Shown here: piece after piece, positions 10,514 to 19,624 of the stretch | Position numbering within the stretch: the stretch's first letter is position 1 | How the letters are laid out: each line of letters begins with the position of its first letter | NCBI GenBank assembly: GCA_030747785.1 | Contig: JASLKC010000033.1 | Location: 1-38,346 of the forward strand | Direction of reading: 5' to 3' | Length of the DNA: 38,346 nucleotides | Source: Candidatus Poseidoniaceae archaeon | GTDB taxonomy: Archaea > Thermoplasmatota > Poseidoniia > Poseidoniales > Poseidoniaceae | Notes under the pieces: generated by a model | The model's database searches: none | What the model was told of the DNA's origin: nothing | The model's input: only the letters and a program-made list of their open reading frames with translations | Made by a program: the position numbers and the translations under genes

Positions 10514-11566
10514 ATGGCGGGGATGAATACTGCAGAAAGCATGGGCGACCTCCACTGTATTGTTAATCCAGCGAGTAGAGACCATACTTGTGGAAAGCGT
10601 TGGCCAAAGATAGTTGAGAAACTTGAAGCGCGTGGATTCACAGTCCATACTCATATGACTGAAAAAGTAGGTCATGCCAGTCAAATTGCCTGGGATTTGA
10701 GGCAGGAAGGAGTTGATGGAATGATAGTAGCAGCTGGTGGCGATGGGACTGTTCACGAAGTTGCAAGTGGTTTGCGAGGCTCAGATATTGTGATGGGAGT
10801 TTTGCCATTTGGCTCTGGTAATGATTACGGTATCACTCAAGGAGTATTCAATAAGGACATCGATGGAGCGATTGAAGTTTTGGTAAATGGAGTCGATAGA
10901 CGCTGTGCTGCATGGAGATTAGAAGGATTTCCAGCAGAGGATGCTGATGGTTATCCTGCCCCAACAGTAAATCAGTGGGATGGGCCATGTCCAGAAGGCA
11001 AGGTAGTACGTTGGGTATTTCTCGAATCAGATGCAGGCATTACTAGCGAAATATCCAGAGCGAAATTATATCGCGCAAAATGGATTAAGGGTGCAAAGAA
11101 ATACACATATCTCGGTATTACAACAATTCCAGTTTGGAAGCGTCGCAAAGTGTGGTTAAAATTAGATGATGAGGAAGGCGAAATTGTCGATTTTACAATG
11201 TATGCTGCTACAACAGGTGAAACTTTTGGAGGCGGATATATCGTTAGTCCGGGCGTAACCCCTCTCGACCAACACGGTTCCATTGTATATGCTCCAAGAA
11301 TGTCTAGACTCGCAATGCTTTCACTAATGGGTCCAATGAAGAAAGGTAAGCACATTGGCAAGTGGGGAATTTTCCAGCGTAAAGCGGATCGAATCGAACT
11401 AAAGCCGGTGGATAAGGATGGTTCAATTAGCGATAAACCGATTGAACCGATGACATGGGTTCAAGCAGATGGCGAACCTTGTATTGTAGCACCAGCAATA
11501 CTAGAATGGCATACCGAGCAAATATTGGTAAGAGGAGCGCCCAATGTTCCTTGGGATTCACAATGA
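10514..11566 (+). CDS. Diacylglycerol/lipid kinase family protein (DAGK catalytic domain)
   Basis: CIVNPASRDHTCGKRWPKI, MIVAAGGDGTVHEVASGL, LPFGSGNDYGIT. Confidence 0.88.
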   Translation: MAGMNTAESMGDLHCIVNPASRDHTCGKRWPKIVEKLEARGFTVHTHMTEKVGHASQIAWDLRQEGVDGMIVAAGGDGTVHEVASGLRGSDIVMGVLPFGSGNDYGITQGVFNKDIDGAIEVLVNGVDRRCAAWRLEGFPAEDADGYPAPTVNQWDGPCPEGKVVRWVFLESDAGITSEISRAKLYRAKWIKGAKKYTYLGITTIPVWKRRKVWLKLDDEEGEIVDFTMYAATTGETFGGGYIVSPGVTPLDQHGSIVYAPRMSRLAMLSLMGPMKKGKHIGKWGIFQRKADRIELKPVDKDGSISDKPIEPMTWVQADGEPCIVAPAILEWHTEQILVRGAPNVPWDSQ

Positions 11567-12949
11567 GAAGTCATTGAAATCATCACCAGCAACAGATGGT
11601 TCACTGGATTTTCTTTGTACTGGTTCCGGTTCTGGTTCCGGTTCAGGCACAGCGGCTTTACGCTTCTTTACGGTTCTGCGCTTGACAGGCTTTGCCCCCT
11701 TAGTTGGTTGTGATGCAGAGGTAGGGTCATTGATTGACGAGCCACGCATTGCTGAGGAGAAGTGTTGACGTTTGGCCGCAGGTTCTGGTTGACTTGATGT
11801 TACACTTGAGCCTGAATACATACTGTCACTTTGTGTTGCAACCGGTTCGTACGAGGTTTGCGTCACTTGAGGTGCAGATACTGCGGCTTTATCTTTGACT
11901 TCTGGAGCAACTGTTACTGAACCGGAAACGCCTCCGCCGAATTCAGTTGGTCCGCTATCATCGGAATCCGTGGAAAGAATATTGTCAAGGCTGAATCCAG
12001 CTAATTCTTTTTCTTCTTTTACTTTCGGAGCCGCTGCCTTTGGTTTTTGTTTTGTAGGCGCTCTTGGTCCAAGGTCTTCCTTTTTCGATTGCTTCAAATC
12101 ACGCTTCATTTGTATGGCTTTAGCAAAGCCTTCTCTACCGAGCAGAGTCTTAGCAGAACTCTTCGCTCCCTGACGAATCATCATTGTAGAGAAGGTGAAC
12201 ATTGCGAAACCGCCACCGCCTCCGACTACTAGGAAGAAAATAACGAATGACCATCTGCCAAAGTAGTCGGTGTCTCCAAGTGCCCATTCATCATCATGGT
12301 CACCATTTGCACTGACAACCCCTTCCTCGACTTCAATGGAAGTGATAATCATCCCTTGTGCTTGGTAGGCGAAATTACAACTATCGGCTTCTAATTGATC
12401 AGCAGGAACTCCGGAATTTACTACAAGATATCCTTTGATTGTAATGGCTTGTTGCCACTCATCTAGAACATTGAGATTATCCGCTACATTTTCAGAGCCT
12501 GGTATTATTCCAATTACAGCCCATTCGCTTTCGTGCTCAGAAAGTTTCGACCCAACGGCTTCTTCTGGGTATAGAGGTGTAATCCAGTGCTTGAGATCTA
12601 CTCGTGGACCCATCTCTACTTGGACTGCTTCTCTCCAAGTCATTTTGTCAATGATTACAGCAGCCCCCATTGCTTTCTCATAACTTTGAACATCATCTGT
12701 ATGGCTTTCATACACAACGGAGGAGATTAACCAGCCCGTTATCGTAAATTCCCCATCACCGCACTTTCCAAGGGTGAGTGATTCGGAATAGGAGTTAGGG
12801 CCCAATTCTGATTTGATATCTGCCGAATCGTCGTTTAGCGTAACTTCCACCCCATCAGCACCCCATTCAGGCGTAGCACTAGCAATGCAGCCAGTGAGAA
12901 GAAACAGGACCGAGACGAACAGAACCATGAGTCTGGGGTCGCGGGCCAT
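11558..12949 (-). CDS. Putative lipoprotein / single-TM protein with long charged cytoplasmic tail
   Basis: Signal peptide with lipobox LFLLTGC; TM FVIFFLVVGGGGGFAMFTFSTM; tail with EPEPEPEPVQ. The ORF start at 13036 would run into the tRNA, so the start is refined to MARDPRLMVL. Confidence 0.72.
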   Translation of the reverse strand: MARDPRLMVLFVSVLFLLTGCIASATPEWGADGVEVTLNDDSADIKSELGPNSYSESLTLGKCGDGEFTITGWLISSVVYESHTDDVQSYEKAMGAAVIIDKMTWREAVQVEMGPRVDLKHWITPLYPEEAVGSKLSEHESEWAVIGIIPGSENVADNLNVLDEWQQAITIKGYLVVNSGVPADQLEADSCNFAYQAQGMIITSIEVEEGVVSANGDHDDEWALGDTDYFGRWSFVIFFLVVGGGGGFAMFTFSTMMIRQGAKSSAKTLLGREGFAKAIQMKRDLKQSKKEDLGPRAPTKQKPKAAAPKVKEEKELAGFSLDNILSTDSDDSGPTEFGGGVSGSVTVAPEVKDKAAVSAPQVTQTSYEPVATQSDSMYSGSSVTSSQPEPAAKRQHFSSAMRGSSINDPTSASQPTKGAKPVKRRTVKKRKAAVPEPEPEPEPVQRKSSEPSVAGDDFNDFSL

Positions 12950-12997
12950 GAGGTGCCTACGGCACCTTTGGTTTGTCAAACCATCGTTTGTGAAAAG

Positions 12998-13079
12998 CGC
13001 GGAGAGAGAGATTCGAACTCCCGTGTCAGAAGACACCGGCTTTCAAGGCCGGCGCAATACCAGGCTATGCGACCTCCGC
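12998..13079 (-). tRNA. tRNA-Ser (anticodon TGA), class II
   Basis: Minus strand GCGGAGG...TCTCCGC acceptor; CCGGC-CTTGAAA-GCCGG anticodon arm; variable arm TGTC-TTCT-GACA; T-loop TTCGAAT. Confidence 0.92.
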
Positions 13080-13124: not shown

Positions 13125-14552
13125 TTACTCATCCCGAGAACTAGCAATGAATGCTAATCCAAGCGCCGCTGCAACCATACTAAACGTAAATCCTGGAATA
13201 CTATCCGAAGAATCCAAATCAGATACGCCATTGATTATTTTCTTGATATCTTCAACAAAATCGCTGACATCCCATTGATATCCGGACCAGGAAATCCTAG
13301 GTTTGCCGTTTGAATCTAAAATAAATGTAAGAGTAGTATGGAGAGTCGAATATTCTGATTCATCGCTATCATGATCCATTCCTTCCATATTAGCCGGAGA
13401 TGGAATACTCATGTCTGCAGTAGAATTTGGAGCCCAAGCAATATGCATGGTATCCGTCAAATCATCCATACCAACTTGTGCCTCTTCCCACATCCCCGAT
13501 GCGGCATTCCATGAATGGAGTTGCCACCACCAACTGAAATCCGATGGTGCTGTGACATTTCCAATCGAACTCATGTAATGTCCATTTTCACTATCTGGAG
13601 CTTCAAAATCACTGAGTGTAGCCATGGATTGATGCCATGCATTTGTTGCAGGCATCATAGCGCTACTTGAATTTCCGCTTACATCGACTATTGTAGTAGA
13701 AGCATGCTCTCCCATTGGAGCAGGAATTGTAGCATCATCAGTGGTATTTGGAGCGAATGCAATCGCTTGAGGCATTAGTGAAGCAATTGCCATGGTAGAA
13801 CTAGTCCAAATTGAATTATCAGAATCCCATGTGTGCAACTCCCACTCCCACGTGCCATCAGAAGGGGCCTCCTCACCATTTATTCCAGTAACTAAGTGAA
13901 TTTGAGAAACATCTTGTTCATCGGGTTGGGCCGTCACGATATTCCAATCTTCTTCGTATGAAGTTGCAGTTAGTTGGTGCCAACCATTCAACATAACATC
14001 ATGCTCACTTGAATTACCATCAGGCATCATCACAGTTACACTATCAGCATGAGACATATCATGGCCTCCATGGCCATCCTCATGTGATTCGATATACTCT
14101 CTGTCTACACTAACGAGGAATTGATCCCACACCGGTTCGACTTCTTCAGTAGTACCAGTAAGATGCGGCCATTCAACTCCATGCATTTCTGTAAATGCAG
14201 CAAGACGTTCTGGCGTATCATATTCAGGGTCAACAGAGATTGAAACAAAATTTACATCTTCTCCATCGAGCGACAATTGTGCAGTTTTCAAATTTTGAGT
14301 AATTGTCGGACACACTTCATGGCATCTGGTGAAGATAAATGCAACAACTGTTGCATCTGCAACTTCTCCAGTAATTGTAGTAGCTATTCCATTTTGATTG
14401 GTAAGTGTGAAATGGTCGATTGAAGATCTAGAGAGTGCAAGTCCATGATAGCCTTGTTCCGAGGTATCATGATTGTGACCACCATCAGCAATAGCATCAG
14501 GAATAGTTGCAACAAAAAGCAATCCAATAAGGCACAATACGGCCGCTCTCAT
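13125..14552 (-). CDS. SCO1/SenC family copper chaperone with inserted two-fold repeat domain and PGF-CTERM-like tail
   Basis: FIFTRCHEVCPTITQNL (CxxxCP), VSISVDPEYDTPERL, and conserved His in YSTLHTTLTFILDSNGK; C-terminus IPGFTFSMVAAALGLAFIASSRDE. Confidence 0.85.
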   Translation of the reverse strand: MRAAVLCLIGLLFVATIPDAIADGGHNHDTSEQGYHGLALSRSSIDHFTLTNQNGIATTITGEVADATVVAFIFTRCHEVCPTITQNLKTAQLSLDGEDVNFVSISVDPEYDTPERLAAFTEMHGVEWPHLTGTTEEVEPVWDQFLVSVDREYIESHEDGHGGHDMSHADSVTVMMPDGNSSEHDVMLNGWHQLTATSYEEDWNIVTAQPDEQDVSQIHLVTGINGEEAPSDGTWEWELHTWDSDNSIWTSSTMAIASLMPQAIAFAPNTTDDATIPAPMGEHASTTIVDVSGNSSSAMMPATNAWHQSMATLSDFEAPDSENGHYMSSIGNVTAPSDFSWWWQLHSWNAASGMWEEAQVGMDDLTDTMHIAWAPNSTADMSIPSPANMEGMDHDSDESEYSTLHTTLTFILDSNGKPRISWSGYQWDVSDFVEDIKKIINGVSDLDSSDSIPGFTFSMVAAALGLAFIASSRDE

Positions 14553-14578: not shown

Positions 14579-14613
14579 GAATAATTGCACTTACTTGTGT
14601 AGTGAAATTATTC
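14579..14613 (-). other. 35-nt imperfect inverted repeat at the coxD 3' end / coxD-SCO junction
   Basis: GAATAATT-g-CACT-(9-nt loop)-AGTG-a-AATTATTC; overlaps the coxD stop codon. Confidence 0.6.
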
Positions 14614-14952
14614 AATTACATATGCCCAATCGTAATTAGGCGTGCACCAATCTGGCAAACCGAGAATACTGTCAGGATTGGAAAGCCCGATTCCCCAAAG
14701 CATCAAAGCGACAAAGAGAACCGGGAATAGAGCGGTTCTGGTGTAGATGAAAGGGTCGCCTTTCAGGTGCATAAAGAATGCAGCAATTCCGTAAGCCTTG
14801 ACAATTCCAACTCCAATTAGAATTGCCCAGACGGTGTATACACTTAGGCCGGAAACATAGACTGCCCCGACTTCTAGCAATGTAAACAACATCAATACGA
14901 CGAAGTTCCAGAAGTAGATGTCCTTTCCTGCGTATAGCTTGTGTTCTCCCAT
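14608..14952 (-). CDS. Cytochrome c oxidase subunit IV-like (prokaryotic caa3/CtaF type)
   Basis: Small three-TM protein directly after coxC; MGEHKLYAGKDIYFWNFVVLMLFTLLEVGAVY...KAYGIAAFFMHLKGDP. Confidence 0.82.
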   Translation of the reverse strand: MGEHKLYAGKDIYFWNFVVLMLFTLLEVGAVYVSGLSVYTVWAILIGVGIVKAYGIAAFFMHLKGDPFIYTRTALFPVLFVALMLWGIGLSNPDSILGLPDWCTPNYDWAYVIE

Positions 14953-14961
14953 AGTATCACC

Positions 14962-16332
14962 TCAGTACAGATAGAATGCGGGGAAGATGGCTACCCAAGC
15001 CAAATCCACAAAGTGCCAATAGAGTCCGAAGTATTCGATACCTCTACCGTTCTTTTCATCATAGCCCACAGTGTCGGCCTTGAAGATCATGAATAACATG
15101 ACTAGTAGTCCAATGAATACGTGCAATCCGTGTGCTCCGGTTGCTACATAGAAGATTGAACCAGCCTGTGTGTTGATATCGAAGCCTTCTGCAACTAGAT
15201 GACTCCATTCAATTAGTTTCAGGATAATGAAGAGAGACCCTAGTGCCAGAGTCATCATCAGATAGTTTCGTACAGCCTTCTTGCGGGTCGGGAATAACTT
15301 AGCCATCAATTTATTATCGCTAACTGTCCACTTGGTGTCTTTAGCGGTCTTCAGTGCAAGAACAATGGTGTATGAAGAGATAATCAGTGCAAAGGTATTG
15401 ATTGCACCAGGAAGTAAAGTTCCAATGTCGTGGCGTAGAAGGTCAGATGCTGTAACAACATCAGCAGGTCCAACACAACGTCCGGAATCTACTGCCCATT
15501 GAGTACACCATTCTGTGCGCATTCTCAGGTAAGAGGAGAAGAATGATGCGAAGACCATCATCTCAGACATAAGGAAAATCCACATTCCAGCCTTTCTAAT
15601 ATCCTGTCCGCCGAATGGCTGACCTAATGCAACCTGTTCATGATGGCCTGCAAGGTCTTCTCTCCACCAGTTGCCGATTCCCACTATTGCAATCATGAAA
15701 CCTACAACGGAGATCGTGAAGCCGCCGTAATCTGCAGCGTAATCAAGTCCAAGTACAGCCTTACAGGTGTCAACGAAACCTGGGAATCCCATCATGAAGA
15801 GTAGGATTCCACTTGCCATTAGAATCGGTGATGCAGATCCATGGTGTTCTTCATGGTCGCCATCATGAGCATAAGGATCATCATCAGGTTGTATACTGTT
15901 AAAGAATCCTGCAACCAAGTAAAATGAAGCGTAAACAACCATCATTAGAGCGATGGTAATTCCAGCGGTCTTCCATGTAAGATATGATAGATGGGCATCG
16001 ATTTTTGCATGTTCTGCATGATCATATTCTTCGAATGCATGCTCGTAATGTTCTAATGCATCTTCACGCTCATCATGTACTTCTCCAGAAGCAGGTCGCC
16101 CTGCATCTTCCCAAGCTTTGTCAGCGGTAGCAAATTCATCCGATGCTTCGACATAATGGTCGTGTGCATTCTCGTATGGAATAATCGTATCTTCCCAAGC
16201 ATGATGCTTCATGGACGCAATGCCAACAGACATTACGCCATATGCAAGGCCACCTACTACGAGTAAAGCGATACCTATCACAACAGTTTTCATCCATATG
16301 TCGTTTTTGACATCGTGCAAACTTCCGCTCAA
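14962..16332 (-). CDS. coxC: Cytochrome c oxidase subunit III with N-terminal His/acid-rich extension
   Basis: RKAGMWIFLMSEMMVFASFFSSYLRMR...GSIFYVATGAHGLHVFIGLL...YFGLYWHFVDLAWVAIFPAFYLY. Confidence 0.93.
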   Translation of the reverse strand: MSGSLHDVKNDIWMKTVVIGIALLVVGGLAYGVMSVGIASMKHHAWEDTIIPYENAHDHYVEASDEFATADKAWEDAGRPASGEVHDEREDALEHYEHAFEEYDHAEHAKIDAHLSYLTWKTAGITIALMMVVYASFYLVAGFFNSIQPDDDPYAHDGDHEEHHGSASPILMASGILLFMMGFPGFVDTCKAVLGLDYAADYGGFTISVVGFMIAIVGIGNWWREDLAGHHEQVALGQPFGGQDIRKAGMWIFLMSEMMVFASFFSSYLRMRTEWCTQWAVDSGRCVGPADVVTASDLLRHDIGTLLPGAINTFALIISSYTIVLALKTAKDTKWTVSDNKLMAKLFPTRKKAVRNYLMMTLALGSLFIILKLIEWSHLVAEGFDINTQAGSIFYVATGAHGLHVFIGLLVMLFMIFKADTVGYDEKNGRGIEYFGLYWHFVDLAWVAIFPAFYLY

Positions 16333-18632
16333 TGTTCCACCTCCTCTGAGTCCTTTTCACCTATTGACCATAATTTCGTGGCCATCTTACCAAAGAATCC
16401 TGGTTCATGGTGATCATCTTCATTATCATCCAATTGGGTAGGGATGATTGCAAAGGAAGGCGTTGGTGGTGGACTAGTTGTCGCCCACTCGAGTGACCAA
16501 CCGCCCCATGGGTCCTTTCCTACCTTCTCGCCCTTCTTTGAGGAGTGGATAATATTCCATAGTAAGAGAACTTGTGAAATTCCAAAGATAAAGGCCATGA
16601 TTGTGATGACCATGTTTAGTTCAGCGAAGCCCGAATCTGCGGTAAATGTGTGAGTACGACGAGGCATTCCCATTATTCCCACTACGTGCATTGGCCAGAA
16701 CGCTCCGTTGTAAGAAGCGAAACCGATCAAGAAATGCCACAATCCAAGAGTTTCATTCATCTTACGGCCAGTAACCTTAGGGAACCAGTAATAGATTCCT
16801 GAGAATAGTGCGAAAACAATTCCTCCAATGAATACATAGTGGAAGTGAGCAACAACGAAGTATCCATCATGCAATTGAGTATCTAGTCCAGCAACCGGGA
16901 AGAACATTCCAGATAACCCTCCCAGTGTAAATGTGATTAGGAATCCGAGCGACCATAGAGTGTGGGTCTTGAAGACTAAGCTTCCTCCCCATAATGTTGC
17001 AAGCCAATTGAAAATTTTCACTCCGGTTGGAATTGCTACAGCCATCGTAGTTAGCATGAATAGCGAGCGCCAGAATGGGTCCATTCCACTAGTAAGCATG
17101 TGATGGCCCCAGACAATAAATCCAACAGCGCCGATTCCAGCCATTGCGTATACCATTGATTTGTATCCAAAAATAGAGCGTCGAGCACTTGTAGCCAATA
17201 CTTCAGAAACGATTCCGAATGCAGGCACTACTACAACATATACTTCAGGATGGCCAAAGAACCAGAATAGATGCTGGAATAGAATCGGGTCTCCACCACT
17301 TACGAAGAATACAGTTCCAATTGTACTATCGAAGAGCAGGAAGAATACGCCGATAATGAATGGTGGCAAACTCAGGTATAGCATGAATACGCTAACTAGT
17401 ACGGACCAAGAGAATAGAGGCATTTTCATCCACTTGACGCCGTGGGCTCGCATTGTGAAAGCGGTGGTAATGAAATTTATTCCGCTTAGAGTAGAAGATG
17501 CACCAAGCAATGCAATTCCTGAGATGAATGAGATAGTTCCAGCATTAGGCCCTCCTTCCATTCCAGTTAATCCAGCATATGGTGGATACATGACCCATGT
17601 GATGTCAGCCGCTTCACCGCTCCAGATTCCCTTGAAGATTAGAGGAGCTGCTGCAACGACTAACCAGAATCCAAGAGCATTGATTCTTGGGAATGCCAAG
17701 TCCTTAGCTCCGATTTGAAGTGGAAGAACATAGTTCATGAAACCAGCAATCATTGGCATTGCAGCTAAGAAAATCATGGTCGTGCCGTGTAGAGTAAAGA
17801 ATGAGTTGTACTCATCATAGCTGAGGAAGTCATTATCTGGAAGTGCTAATTGTATACGGAATAGCAATGCCAGAAGTCCTCCTACTAGGAAGAAGAAGAA
17901 TCCATACAAGAAGTAGAGAATACCTACTTCTTTGTGATCGGTAGTCGTTAGCCAGGGTTTCAAGTACGCCCAGAAGTTTCCAATAGAGAAAGTTCCAGGG
18001 CTACGAGTATAGAAAACCCACATGGTTCCGATTAGGATTAAGCCAAGTGCTAGTCCAATAGCAGTCATCAAAATCGTGAGTGCTGCTGCAGATGGTGCAG
18101 AAGGACTGGCTTGTACACCAGGAACTACTAATTCCCCGCTATTCCATCCATCTCCACCCGAGGTATCGTCACCATTGACCGCATTTGCGAGATAATGGAA
18201 TGTTGCAGTTTGAGTATCATCTGCTGGAGCAGTCCACTTGAAAGTCCAACTTCGAACACTATTGACATCGTCATTGTGAGTAAGTGCTCCTTCTATCTCA
18301 TGGCCAACATTTCCTTGAGCATCAGGAACCGCTTCAAGAGTTCCCACAGAGTCTTCGACCCATATTCTAAATCCACCTGAACGGTCATATCCGCCAGATG
18401 CACCAACGACTTCATCATTGGTAATACTAAGAGTGAACGTATATTCTTCACTTGCATTGAAAGTTTCAGGAAGACCATCAATAGAAATCACAGTAGCAGC
18501 AGATTGAGTGTGACAAAGACAACCATCGTTTGCGTTAGAGCCAATACCTCCAGGCGAAGCTTCGAATTGAGGTATAGTGACGAGAGCCATCATCAGAATG
18601 GCAATCAGTGCAAAGGTGCGCTTTCCGTTCAT
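16329..18632 (-). CDS. coxA: Cytochrome c oxidase subunit I with N-terminal extracytoplasmic CxCH-containing domain
   Basis: FWFFGHPEVYVVVVPAFGIVSE, WGHHMLTSGMDP, DGYFVVAHFHYVFIGG, GAKDLAFPRINALGFWL; fused N-terminal signal peptide plus beta-rich domain. Confidence 0.95.
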   Translation of the reverse strand: MNGKRTFALIAILMMALVTIPQFEASPGGIGSNANDGCLCHTQSAATVISIDGLPETFNASEEYTFTLSITNDEVVGASGGYDRSGGFRIWVEDSVGTLEAVPDAQGNVGHEIEGALTHNDDVNSVRSWTFKWTAPADDTQTATFHYLANAVNGDDTSGGDGWNSGELVVPGVQASPSAPSAAALTILMTAIGLALGLILIGTMWVFYTRSPGTFSIGNFWAYLKPWLTTTDHKEVGILYFLYGFFFFLVGGLLALLFRIQLALPDNDFLSYDEYNSFFTLHGTTMIFLAAMPMIAGFMNYVLPLQIGAKDLAFPRINALGFWLVVAAAPLIFKGIWSGEAADITWVMYPPYAGLTGMEGGPNAGTISFISGIALLGASSTLSGINFITTAFTMRAHGVKWMKMPLFSWSVLVSVFMLYLSLPPFIIGVFFLLFDSTIGTVFFVSGGDPILFQHLFWFFGHPEVYVVVVPAFGIVSEVLATSARRSIFGYKSMVYAMAGIGAVGFIVWGHHMLTSGMDPFWRSLFMLTTMAVAIPTGVKIFNWLATLWGGSLVFKTHTLWSLGFLITFTLGGLSGMFFPVAGLDTQLHDGYFVVAHFHYVFIGGIVFALFSGIYYWFPKVTGRKMNETLGLWHFLIGFASYNGAFWPMHVVGIMGMPRRTHTFTADSGFAELNMVITIMAFIFGISQVLLLWNIIHSSKKGEKVGKDPWGGWSLEWATTSPPPTPSFAIIPTQLDDNEDDHHEPGFFGKMATKLWSIGEKDSEEVEH

Positions 18633-19624
18633 TCGAGTGCCCCCATGTCTCCAAATACAATGCCAAAGTCTTCGTCACATGTCTCACCCTCTCGGGCTAC
18701 AACTTCAACTTCTCCAGTCATTACTGAGTGTTGTTCTCCACAATATTCTGCACATCGAACTGGGAAGGTACCGGCCTCATTGGGTTGAACGAATAGCCAA
18801 GTGCCACCTTCAAGTCCTGGGACAGCATCTTCTTTGTTACCCCATTCTTGGAGCCATAATGCATGCTGTACACCTTGGTGGCGGGAATTATCATCATTGT
18901 ACTTGTCAGAATGGATATTGATAGTAACATCTTCATCACATGGAATGATGAAATCATCAGTCATTTTTAGTCCGATTCTAATGTGATGCCAGCGATGAAC
19001 TACTTCACCTTCCGAATCGAGCAGGAAAACTTGTTGCTCAACATTACTGTCAAAGGGCTGGTCAAGACTTGAATTATTAGCCAAATCTAAATCGATACTA
19101 TTGCTAGAGTATACAAGATCGCCATTATCGTTTAGCGATAGGGTTTCCCAACTTACTTCTGCTGTGACTGCTGCTGTTCCAGCAGCGATCGAAAGTCCAT
19201 TTGCATCCCAAGTTACATCATGAATAGTAGACATATCTTCCCAAGTCATTTCATCTTGGTAGCGATATTCCCAGTACCATTGCATGCCATTTGCTTCGAC
19301 AGTGAATGAATCACTTTCGGAAGGAATGGCACCCCACACGAGATTCATTGAACCGAATGCAAGCCAAGTCACCCACAGAATGAGAATAGTTGGGCCGAGG
19401 AACCAAGCGAATTCCAATTTGGCATTATGTCGTTCTTTTGGAAAAGTTCCGACTTTCAGTACTTCTTTACCAGCAGGCTCGACACCTTCTCGATATCGAA
19501 GAACTGCAATGAGTAGCCAAACAAAGGCAAATATTCCTACCAAAATTGACCAGAACATGAATTTATCATACAACACCGTGAACAAGGTGTTTTCATCCGG
19601 CCACAACTCTCGCGAAGCGCCCAT
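18629..19624 (-). CDS. coxB: Cytochrome c oxidase subunit II (CuA)
   Basis: CuA motif CAEYCGEQHSVM; VQHALWLQEWGNKEDAVPG; two N-terminal TM helices. Confidence 0.93.
   Translation of the reverse strand: MGASRELWPDENTLFTVLYDKFMFWSILVGIFAFVWLLIAVLRYREGVEPAGKEVLKVGTFPKERHNAKLEFAWFLGPTILILWVTWLAFGSMNLVWGAIPSESDSFTVEANGMQWYWEYRYQDEMTWEDMSTIHDVTWDANGLSIAAGTAAVTAEVSWETLSLNDNGDLVYSSNSIDLDLANNSSLDQPFDSNVEQQVFLLDSEGEVVHRWHHIRIGLKMTDDFIIPCDEDVTINIHSDKYNDDNSRHQGVQHALWLQEWGNKEDAVPGLEGGTWLFVQPNEAGTFPVRCAEYCGEQHSVMTGEVEVVAREGETCDEDFGIVFGDMGALE

Follow-up and report, generated by a model that had tools for sequence, protein, structure and literature searches.

A gene in the cytochrome c oxidase cluster of a Candidatus Poseidoniales archaeon (Marine Group II archaea, family Poseidoniaceae) encodes a 475-aa protein that is, judged by homology, an SCO1/SenC copper chaperone, and its SCO fold is split between the Cys pair and the His ligand by a tandem repeat that is in all probability a divergent transcobalamin-type SLBB/DUF4430 beta-grasp domain. 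Marine Group II archaea are oceanic and very common, and inside Poseidoniales this SCO-SLBB fusion is the rule and not a local oddity. We think it probable that the protein is a secreted, surface-anchored SCO that builds the CuA site of the neighbouring oxidase, with the two SLBB domains in the loop before the His either docking the chaperone or feeding it copper. The fusion is a concrete, testable case of a chaperone with its presumed client in the same gene cluster. Table 1 gives the features of the gene and of the cox genes next to it in the window, by which we mean the whole 38,346-nucleotide stretch of DNA that was analysed.

Table 1. Features of the fused SCO gene and the linked oxidase genes (positions in the window)
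Feature	Positions	Strand	Basis
Whole fused SCO gene, 475 aa + stop	13125..14552	(-)	ORF; PF02630; homologues with equal layout
Predicted signal peptide, residues 1-22	14487..14552	(-)	by inspection; helix 2-16 in model
SCO thioredoxin-like fold, N-terminal part, residues 40-150	14103..14435	(-)	PF02630; alignment to 4HDE 12-123
C77-x3-C81 (CHEVC) copper-ligand motif	14310..14324	(-)	invariant in 34 homologues
His-rich linker HEDGHGGHDMSHADS, residues 157-171	14040..14084	(-)	sequence; pLDDT <50 at 155-166
SLBB/DUF4430-like copy 1, residues 166-283	13704..14057	(-)	repeat profile; pLDDT ~95 over most; superfamily via profiles, bridge and Foldseek
SLBB/DUF4430-like copy 2, residues 280-390	13383..13715	(-)	repeat profile; separate model with mean pLDDT 86; Foldseek
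H307, near-invariant in copy 2 only (52/57)	13632..13634	(-)	
H325, near-invariant in copy 2 (54/57)	13578..13580	(-)	
M362, near-invariant in copy 2 only (55/57)	13467..13469	(-)	
SCO fold, C-terminal part, residues 400-441, with H405	13230..13355	(-)	H405 invariant; joined-halves alignment
PGF...TM...R C-terminal tail, residues 453-475	13128..13196	(-)	archaeosortase-type sorting signal by pattern
Cytochrome c oxidase subunit IV	14608..14952	(-)	PF03626
Cytochrome c oxidase subunit III	14962..16332	(-)	PF00510
Cytochrome c oxidase subunit I	16329..18632	(-)	PF00115, E 2e-141
Cytochrome c oxidase subunit II, CuA motif CAEYCGEQHSVM, presumed client	18629..19624	(-)	PF00116; motif

The SCO fold and the place of the insert

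The 475-aa protein matches the SCO1/SenC family PF02630 with E 5.7e-26 (91.5 bits against a Pfam cut-off of 22.8), and SCO structures head the list of Foldseek matches to its full-length model; the large rmsd values in that list are probably due to alignments that extend into the insert. C77, C81 and H405, which lie at the positions that an earlier note made from the DNA letters had given them, are invariant in an alignment of 34 homologues. When the two SCO halves are joined without the intervening residues, residues 8-158 of the resulting query match chain residues 12-168 of 4HDE in one continuous alignment (E 1.2e-16). B. subtilis Sco 1ON4/1XZO likewise aligns continuously with the joined halves (E 3e-15), and in these alignments H405 falls on the conserved His of chains 4HDE and 1ON4, the third copper ligand of the SCO family. 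The Pfam alignment is stretched to residue 180 and so pointed to another candidate for that ligand, H168 in SHADSVTVMMPDG; it is ruled out by the facts that H168 is not conserved and that H405 is invariant and matches the His of the short SCO paralogues.

The profile of the 34 homologues matches B. anthracis SCO (4HDE) in two abutting pieces, chain residues 13-123 and 124-169, and the predicted structure likewise runs the insert between SCO helix 135-144 and strand 408-412 (mean pLDDT of the full model 85.5; its pTM of 0.51 means that the orientation of the domains is not fixed by the model). Alignments and predicted structure therefore agree on what the earlier note had proposed, namely an SCO fold interrupted by a tandem repeat between the Cys pair and the His, with the span 13389-14042 of this minus-strand gene (residues 171-388) as the insert. 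Because the same nesting is present in more than 60 independent assemblies, it is not an assembly error. The claim that His-rich segments flank the insert holds for residues 157-171 and ~394-400 (His/Asp-rich), but the GGHNHD segment (residues 24-29) is at the mature N-terminus and not beside the insert. At the other end of the protein the C-terminal tail, read by eye, is IPGFTF...SSRDE, and archaeosortase A (TIGR04125) is encoded in the same genome; the NCBIfam PGF-CTERM models gave no match to the protein.

According to a census of thioredoxin folds, insertions are easily tolerated nowhere but between the second strand and the second helix (PMC2757866), and the Poseidoniales site breaks this rule throughout the order, with one to five domains placed between a later helix and the His-bearing strand. 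Nesting of this domain in SCO was not found in the open-access literature searched, and two open-access genome surveys of Marine Group II make no mention of any SCO protein.

The inserted domain and its two copies

The two halves of the insert, ~110 aa each, had been described as homologous copies and are indeed true repeats: they are 32% identical over 113 columns (E 1e-14 in a single pairwise comparison) and the repeat profile recovers both at ~1e-41, so they are not alike by chance. A Pfam search with either copy, PF14478 included, returned no direct match, and a PDB sequence search with the repeat profile returned no relative. The assignment to the SLBB superfamily, in which we have high confidence, is made because profile comparison, bridging proteins and structural matches concur, as follows: hhalign of the repeat alignment against archaeal proteins matching the DUF4430 model gave a probability of 95.2% (E 2.9e-8, 73 columns); a bridging surface protein from elsewhere in the phylum (L074) matches PF14478 with 27.8 bits, above the cut-off of 23.8, and is also recovered by the repeat profile (3e-17); and the first 12 Foldseek matches of the copy-2 model are 3U7Z and human intrinsic factor, transcobalamin and haptocorrin (best E 3.4e-3, probability 1.00; TM-scores of the first 12 by query 0.46-0.51, and 0.48-0.58 against 3U7Z). 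The hhalign result and the copy-2 Foldseek matches also rule out a novel fold for the insert. In the copy-2 model short paired strands appear to follow the helix, and the passages on the transcobalamin-like SLBB clade in PMC1796856 give an extra beta-hairpin after the helix as its mark and describe its members as typically secreted or cell-surface proteins and predicted binders of soluble ligands. Those passages name no thioredoxin-fold partner, and the words thioredoxin and chaperone are absent from the text. A paper that uses 3U7Z describes calcium sites, some of them nonspecifically bound (PMC3975891), so the metal-binding title of that entry counts for little. The earlier note had also considered that the repeat might be a known domain routinely fused to SCO; its superfamily is known, but its nesting in SCO was found only in class Poseidoniia, the search for fusions outside the phylum having used one DNA-level pattern set built on a narrow SWWW-type repeat alignment that would miss divergent fusions.

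In a tree of 183 copies, which has few columns and many weak forks, most first copies group together and most second copies group together across genera, and the duplication is therefore ancient. A recent tandem duplication in this genome is ruled out, since its copies fall, by forks that are often weak, with their counterparts in other genera. Elsewhere, a 777-aa SCO with five repeat matches (L133, 2540-4873) has apparently undergone a recent extra duplication of the copy pair.

The best-conserved positions of the repeat are Trp, Pro, Leu and Asp, for example W341, W343, W348, W355 and W373. Copy 2 is set apart by H307, H325 and M362, all three of which are present in 51 of 57 copy-2 sequences (these are related rows, so the counts are not independent) while a few sequences are without one or more of them. 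The corresponding positions of copy 1 are mostly T/D, H/T and I/V, and copy 1 of this genome has both His (H192 and H219) without the Met. If the protein has a second metal site, copy 2 with its His/His/Met set is the likeliest place for it.

Genomic setting and distribution

In the window the minus strand carries, in this order, cox2, cox1, cox3, cox4 and SCO. Wherever the sequence of a Poseidoniaceae locus extends far enough upstream, cox4 stands directly before the fused SCO gene on the same strand, usually within ~100 bases or overlapping it, and single-copy relatives in a second family mostly keep the cox linkage with larger gaps. The fused SCO is very likely the chaperone for the oxidase to which it is linked. 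One cox-linked orthologue (L026, genome G027) has no repeat and only a His/Asp-rich loop at that place, from which it follows that the repeats are dispensable for the core task.

The neighbouring genes have peculiarities of their own. Subunit I (16329-18632) begins with a choice-of-anchor V domain (NF041895, 82 bits against a cut-off of 42) that carries a CxCH motif (GCLCH), and the cox1 ORFs of L066 and L067 have an N-terminal extension of the same type. Subunit III (14962-16332) has ~200 extra N-terminal residues, His/Glu-rich and with hydrophobic segments, before its COX3 domain (residues 205-455). The gene after SCO (11558-13036, minus strand) encodes a 492-aa protein without a Pfam or NCBIfam match, and almost every Poseidoniaceae locus has a homologue after SCO, oriented the same way.

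In our phylum-wide sample the domain is found in all but five genomes of the window's family, in most genomes of the second family, in one genome of the same class from another family, and in scattered others. It is again nested in SCO in L073, of the same class but another family, whereas in the other Thermoplasmatota examined it begins PQQ-type propeller proteins and other surface proteins and is not in SCO. Among the 80 loci from named genomes, 66 repeat-bearing ORFs have an SCO half, and 48 of these carry two copies, 11 one, six three and one five; inserts in relatives are at the same point and have one to five copies, against none in the cox-linked orthologue L026. A contig labelled Rhodobiaceae bacterium (L160) has a Poseidoniales-type SCO and cox cluster that groups inside the Poseidoniales sequences and is most likely mis-binned. 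In another Thermoplasmatota genome, a Peripla_BP_2 protein of the vitamin B12/siderophore type (L090, 529-1911, minus strand) has at its start an SLBB-like domain that the repeat profile recovers at 1e-6, which makes a natural combination in view of the transcobalamin link. Several second-family loci (L039-L042, L046, L048, L049) have tandem SCO genes, one gene with a short thrombospondin-type-3-like insert in the same loop (TSP_3 matches weak) and the next with a divergent SLBB insert, and no cox gene lies within the stretch covered around them.

Roles of the insert and comparison with known systems

In the mechanism that we propose, C77, C81 and H405 would hold one copper and hand it to subunit II in the usual mode of an SCO core, and the insert, on its flexible His-rich linkers, would sit beside the copper site and either dock the chaperone or feed it copper; we consider these two roles about equally likely. 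If it only docks, the SLBB domains would bind no metal and would recognise a partner outside the membrane, which could be subunit II, a further oxidase extension, the S-layer or a glycan, so bringing the SCO core close to its client. According to the passages on them in PMC1796856, SLBB members bind a variety of ligands; the Trp/Pro/Leu/Asp conservation is of the kind usual in surfaces for recognition or packing, relatives differ in copy number, and the adjacent oxidase subunits also have lineage-specific extracellular additions. We give such a purely docking module somewhat less than an even chance, and it leaves unexplained both the fixation of His/His/Met in copy 2 and the occurrence of this domain in ZnuA-like proteins, within their His-rich loop.

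Those two facts, together with the His-rich linkers and the lack of PCuAC, are the reasons for favouring a part for the insert in metal handling, beyond docking or spacing, a proposal that we make tentatively. Bacterial SCO acts together with a small copper protein, PCuAC or another (PMC9145763); PCuAC (PF04314) was found in none of 61 genomes, against SCO in 58 of the 61, and a Pfam scan found no PF04314 in the fused protein. Copy 2 might take on, in the same polypeptide as the SCO core, the task that in bacteria falls to PCuAC as a protein of its own, and might perhaps replace PCuAC. PCuAC is also missing where other proteins serve, such as CtaK in B. subtilis (PMC9145763), and SLBB domains are generic ligand-binding modules that occur also in beta-propeller proteins without a link to metals; both points count against metal handling, as do the repeat-less orthologue L026 and the few copy-2 sequences without the full His/His/Met set. 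The boldest form of the proposal, that copy 2 is a genuine second copper site, that capture and CuA loading are united in one polypeptide in place of PCuAC, and that the domain is a general extracellular metal module, we regard as improbable; were it true, the SLBB domain would play a matching role in the zinc receptors of the ZnuA-like type in Poseidoniales.

A permissive loop before the His might instead simply collect extracellular modules (SLBB, EGF-like, thrombospondin-type-3-like or His-rich) with little effect on copper delivery. The same loop does hold a TSP_3-like stretch in L039 (E 3.5e-4, below the cut-off) and an EGF-like Cys-rich stretch in L038 (alignment A1 columns 676-738), both weak matches, and that of L026 has neither module. 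The copies nevertheless form distinct clades across Poseidoniaceae genera and copy 2 keeps its near-invariant residues, so the copies are under constraint, and we judge mere tolerance of the insertion unlikely. It is very unlikely that the fused protein serves chiefly as a redox- or stress-sensing SCO paralogue and not as a CuA chaperone. Some SCO functions are those of a thiol-disulfide enzyme (PMC2757866, PMC9145763), and short SCO paralogues are present in the same genomes, but these paralogues lie elsewhere than the cox cluster, it is the fused copy that is linked to the CuA-bearing oxidase, and the His ligand of the fused copy is invariant.

With SCO1/SenC proteins (PF02630; YpmQ 1ON4/1XZO, 4HDE, human SCO1) the fused SCO of our preferred reading, a CuA chaperone with a docking or copper-feeding insert, shares the thioredoxin-like fold, the CxxxCP motif, the His ligand and linkage to cox genes, and probably secretion and membrane anchoring. 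Unlike them it carries two SLBB domains and a His-rich linker, ~230 residues in all, immediately ahead of the His ligand, and its putative anchor is a C-terminal PGF-type tail where theirs is a lipobox or an N-terminal anchor. With transcobalamin-type SLBB domains (PF14478; 3U7Z; 5NO0/5NP4) the insert, as modelled, shares the beta-grasp order, and its short paired strands after the helix may correspond to their extra hairpins, but it is nested in another fold and has diverged so far that neither Pfam nor PDB sequence searches match it directly. PCuAC, which works alongside SCO when CuA is assembled and has His/Met ligands and a tail rich in His and Met (PMC9145763), is comparable in that role, and differs in being a separate protein of an unrelated, cupredoxin-like fold.

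The ZnuA/AdcA-like proteins of Poseidoniales carry the same domain in a His-rich loop between the halves of their host; the alignment of these halves with AdcA reaches residue 73 and resumes at residue 92, and in the tree the domain copies of these proteins group with the single-copy SCO inserts. Five such proteins (L031, 3086-5899; L032; L033; L034; L163, 69-1700) have one or two SLBB copies and long HD repeats. They differ from the fused SCO in host fold and metal, in their very long His-rich stretches and in their EF-hand-like motifs. With the SCO fusion the transcobalamin-like superfamily extends into the loops of metalloproteins.
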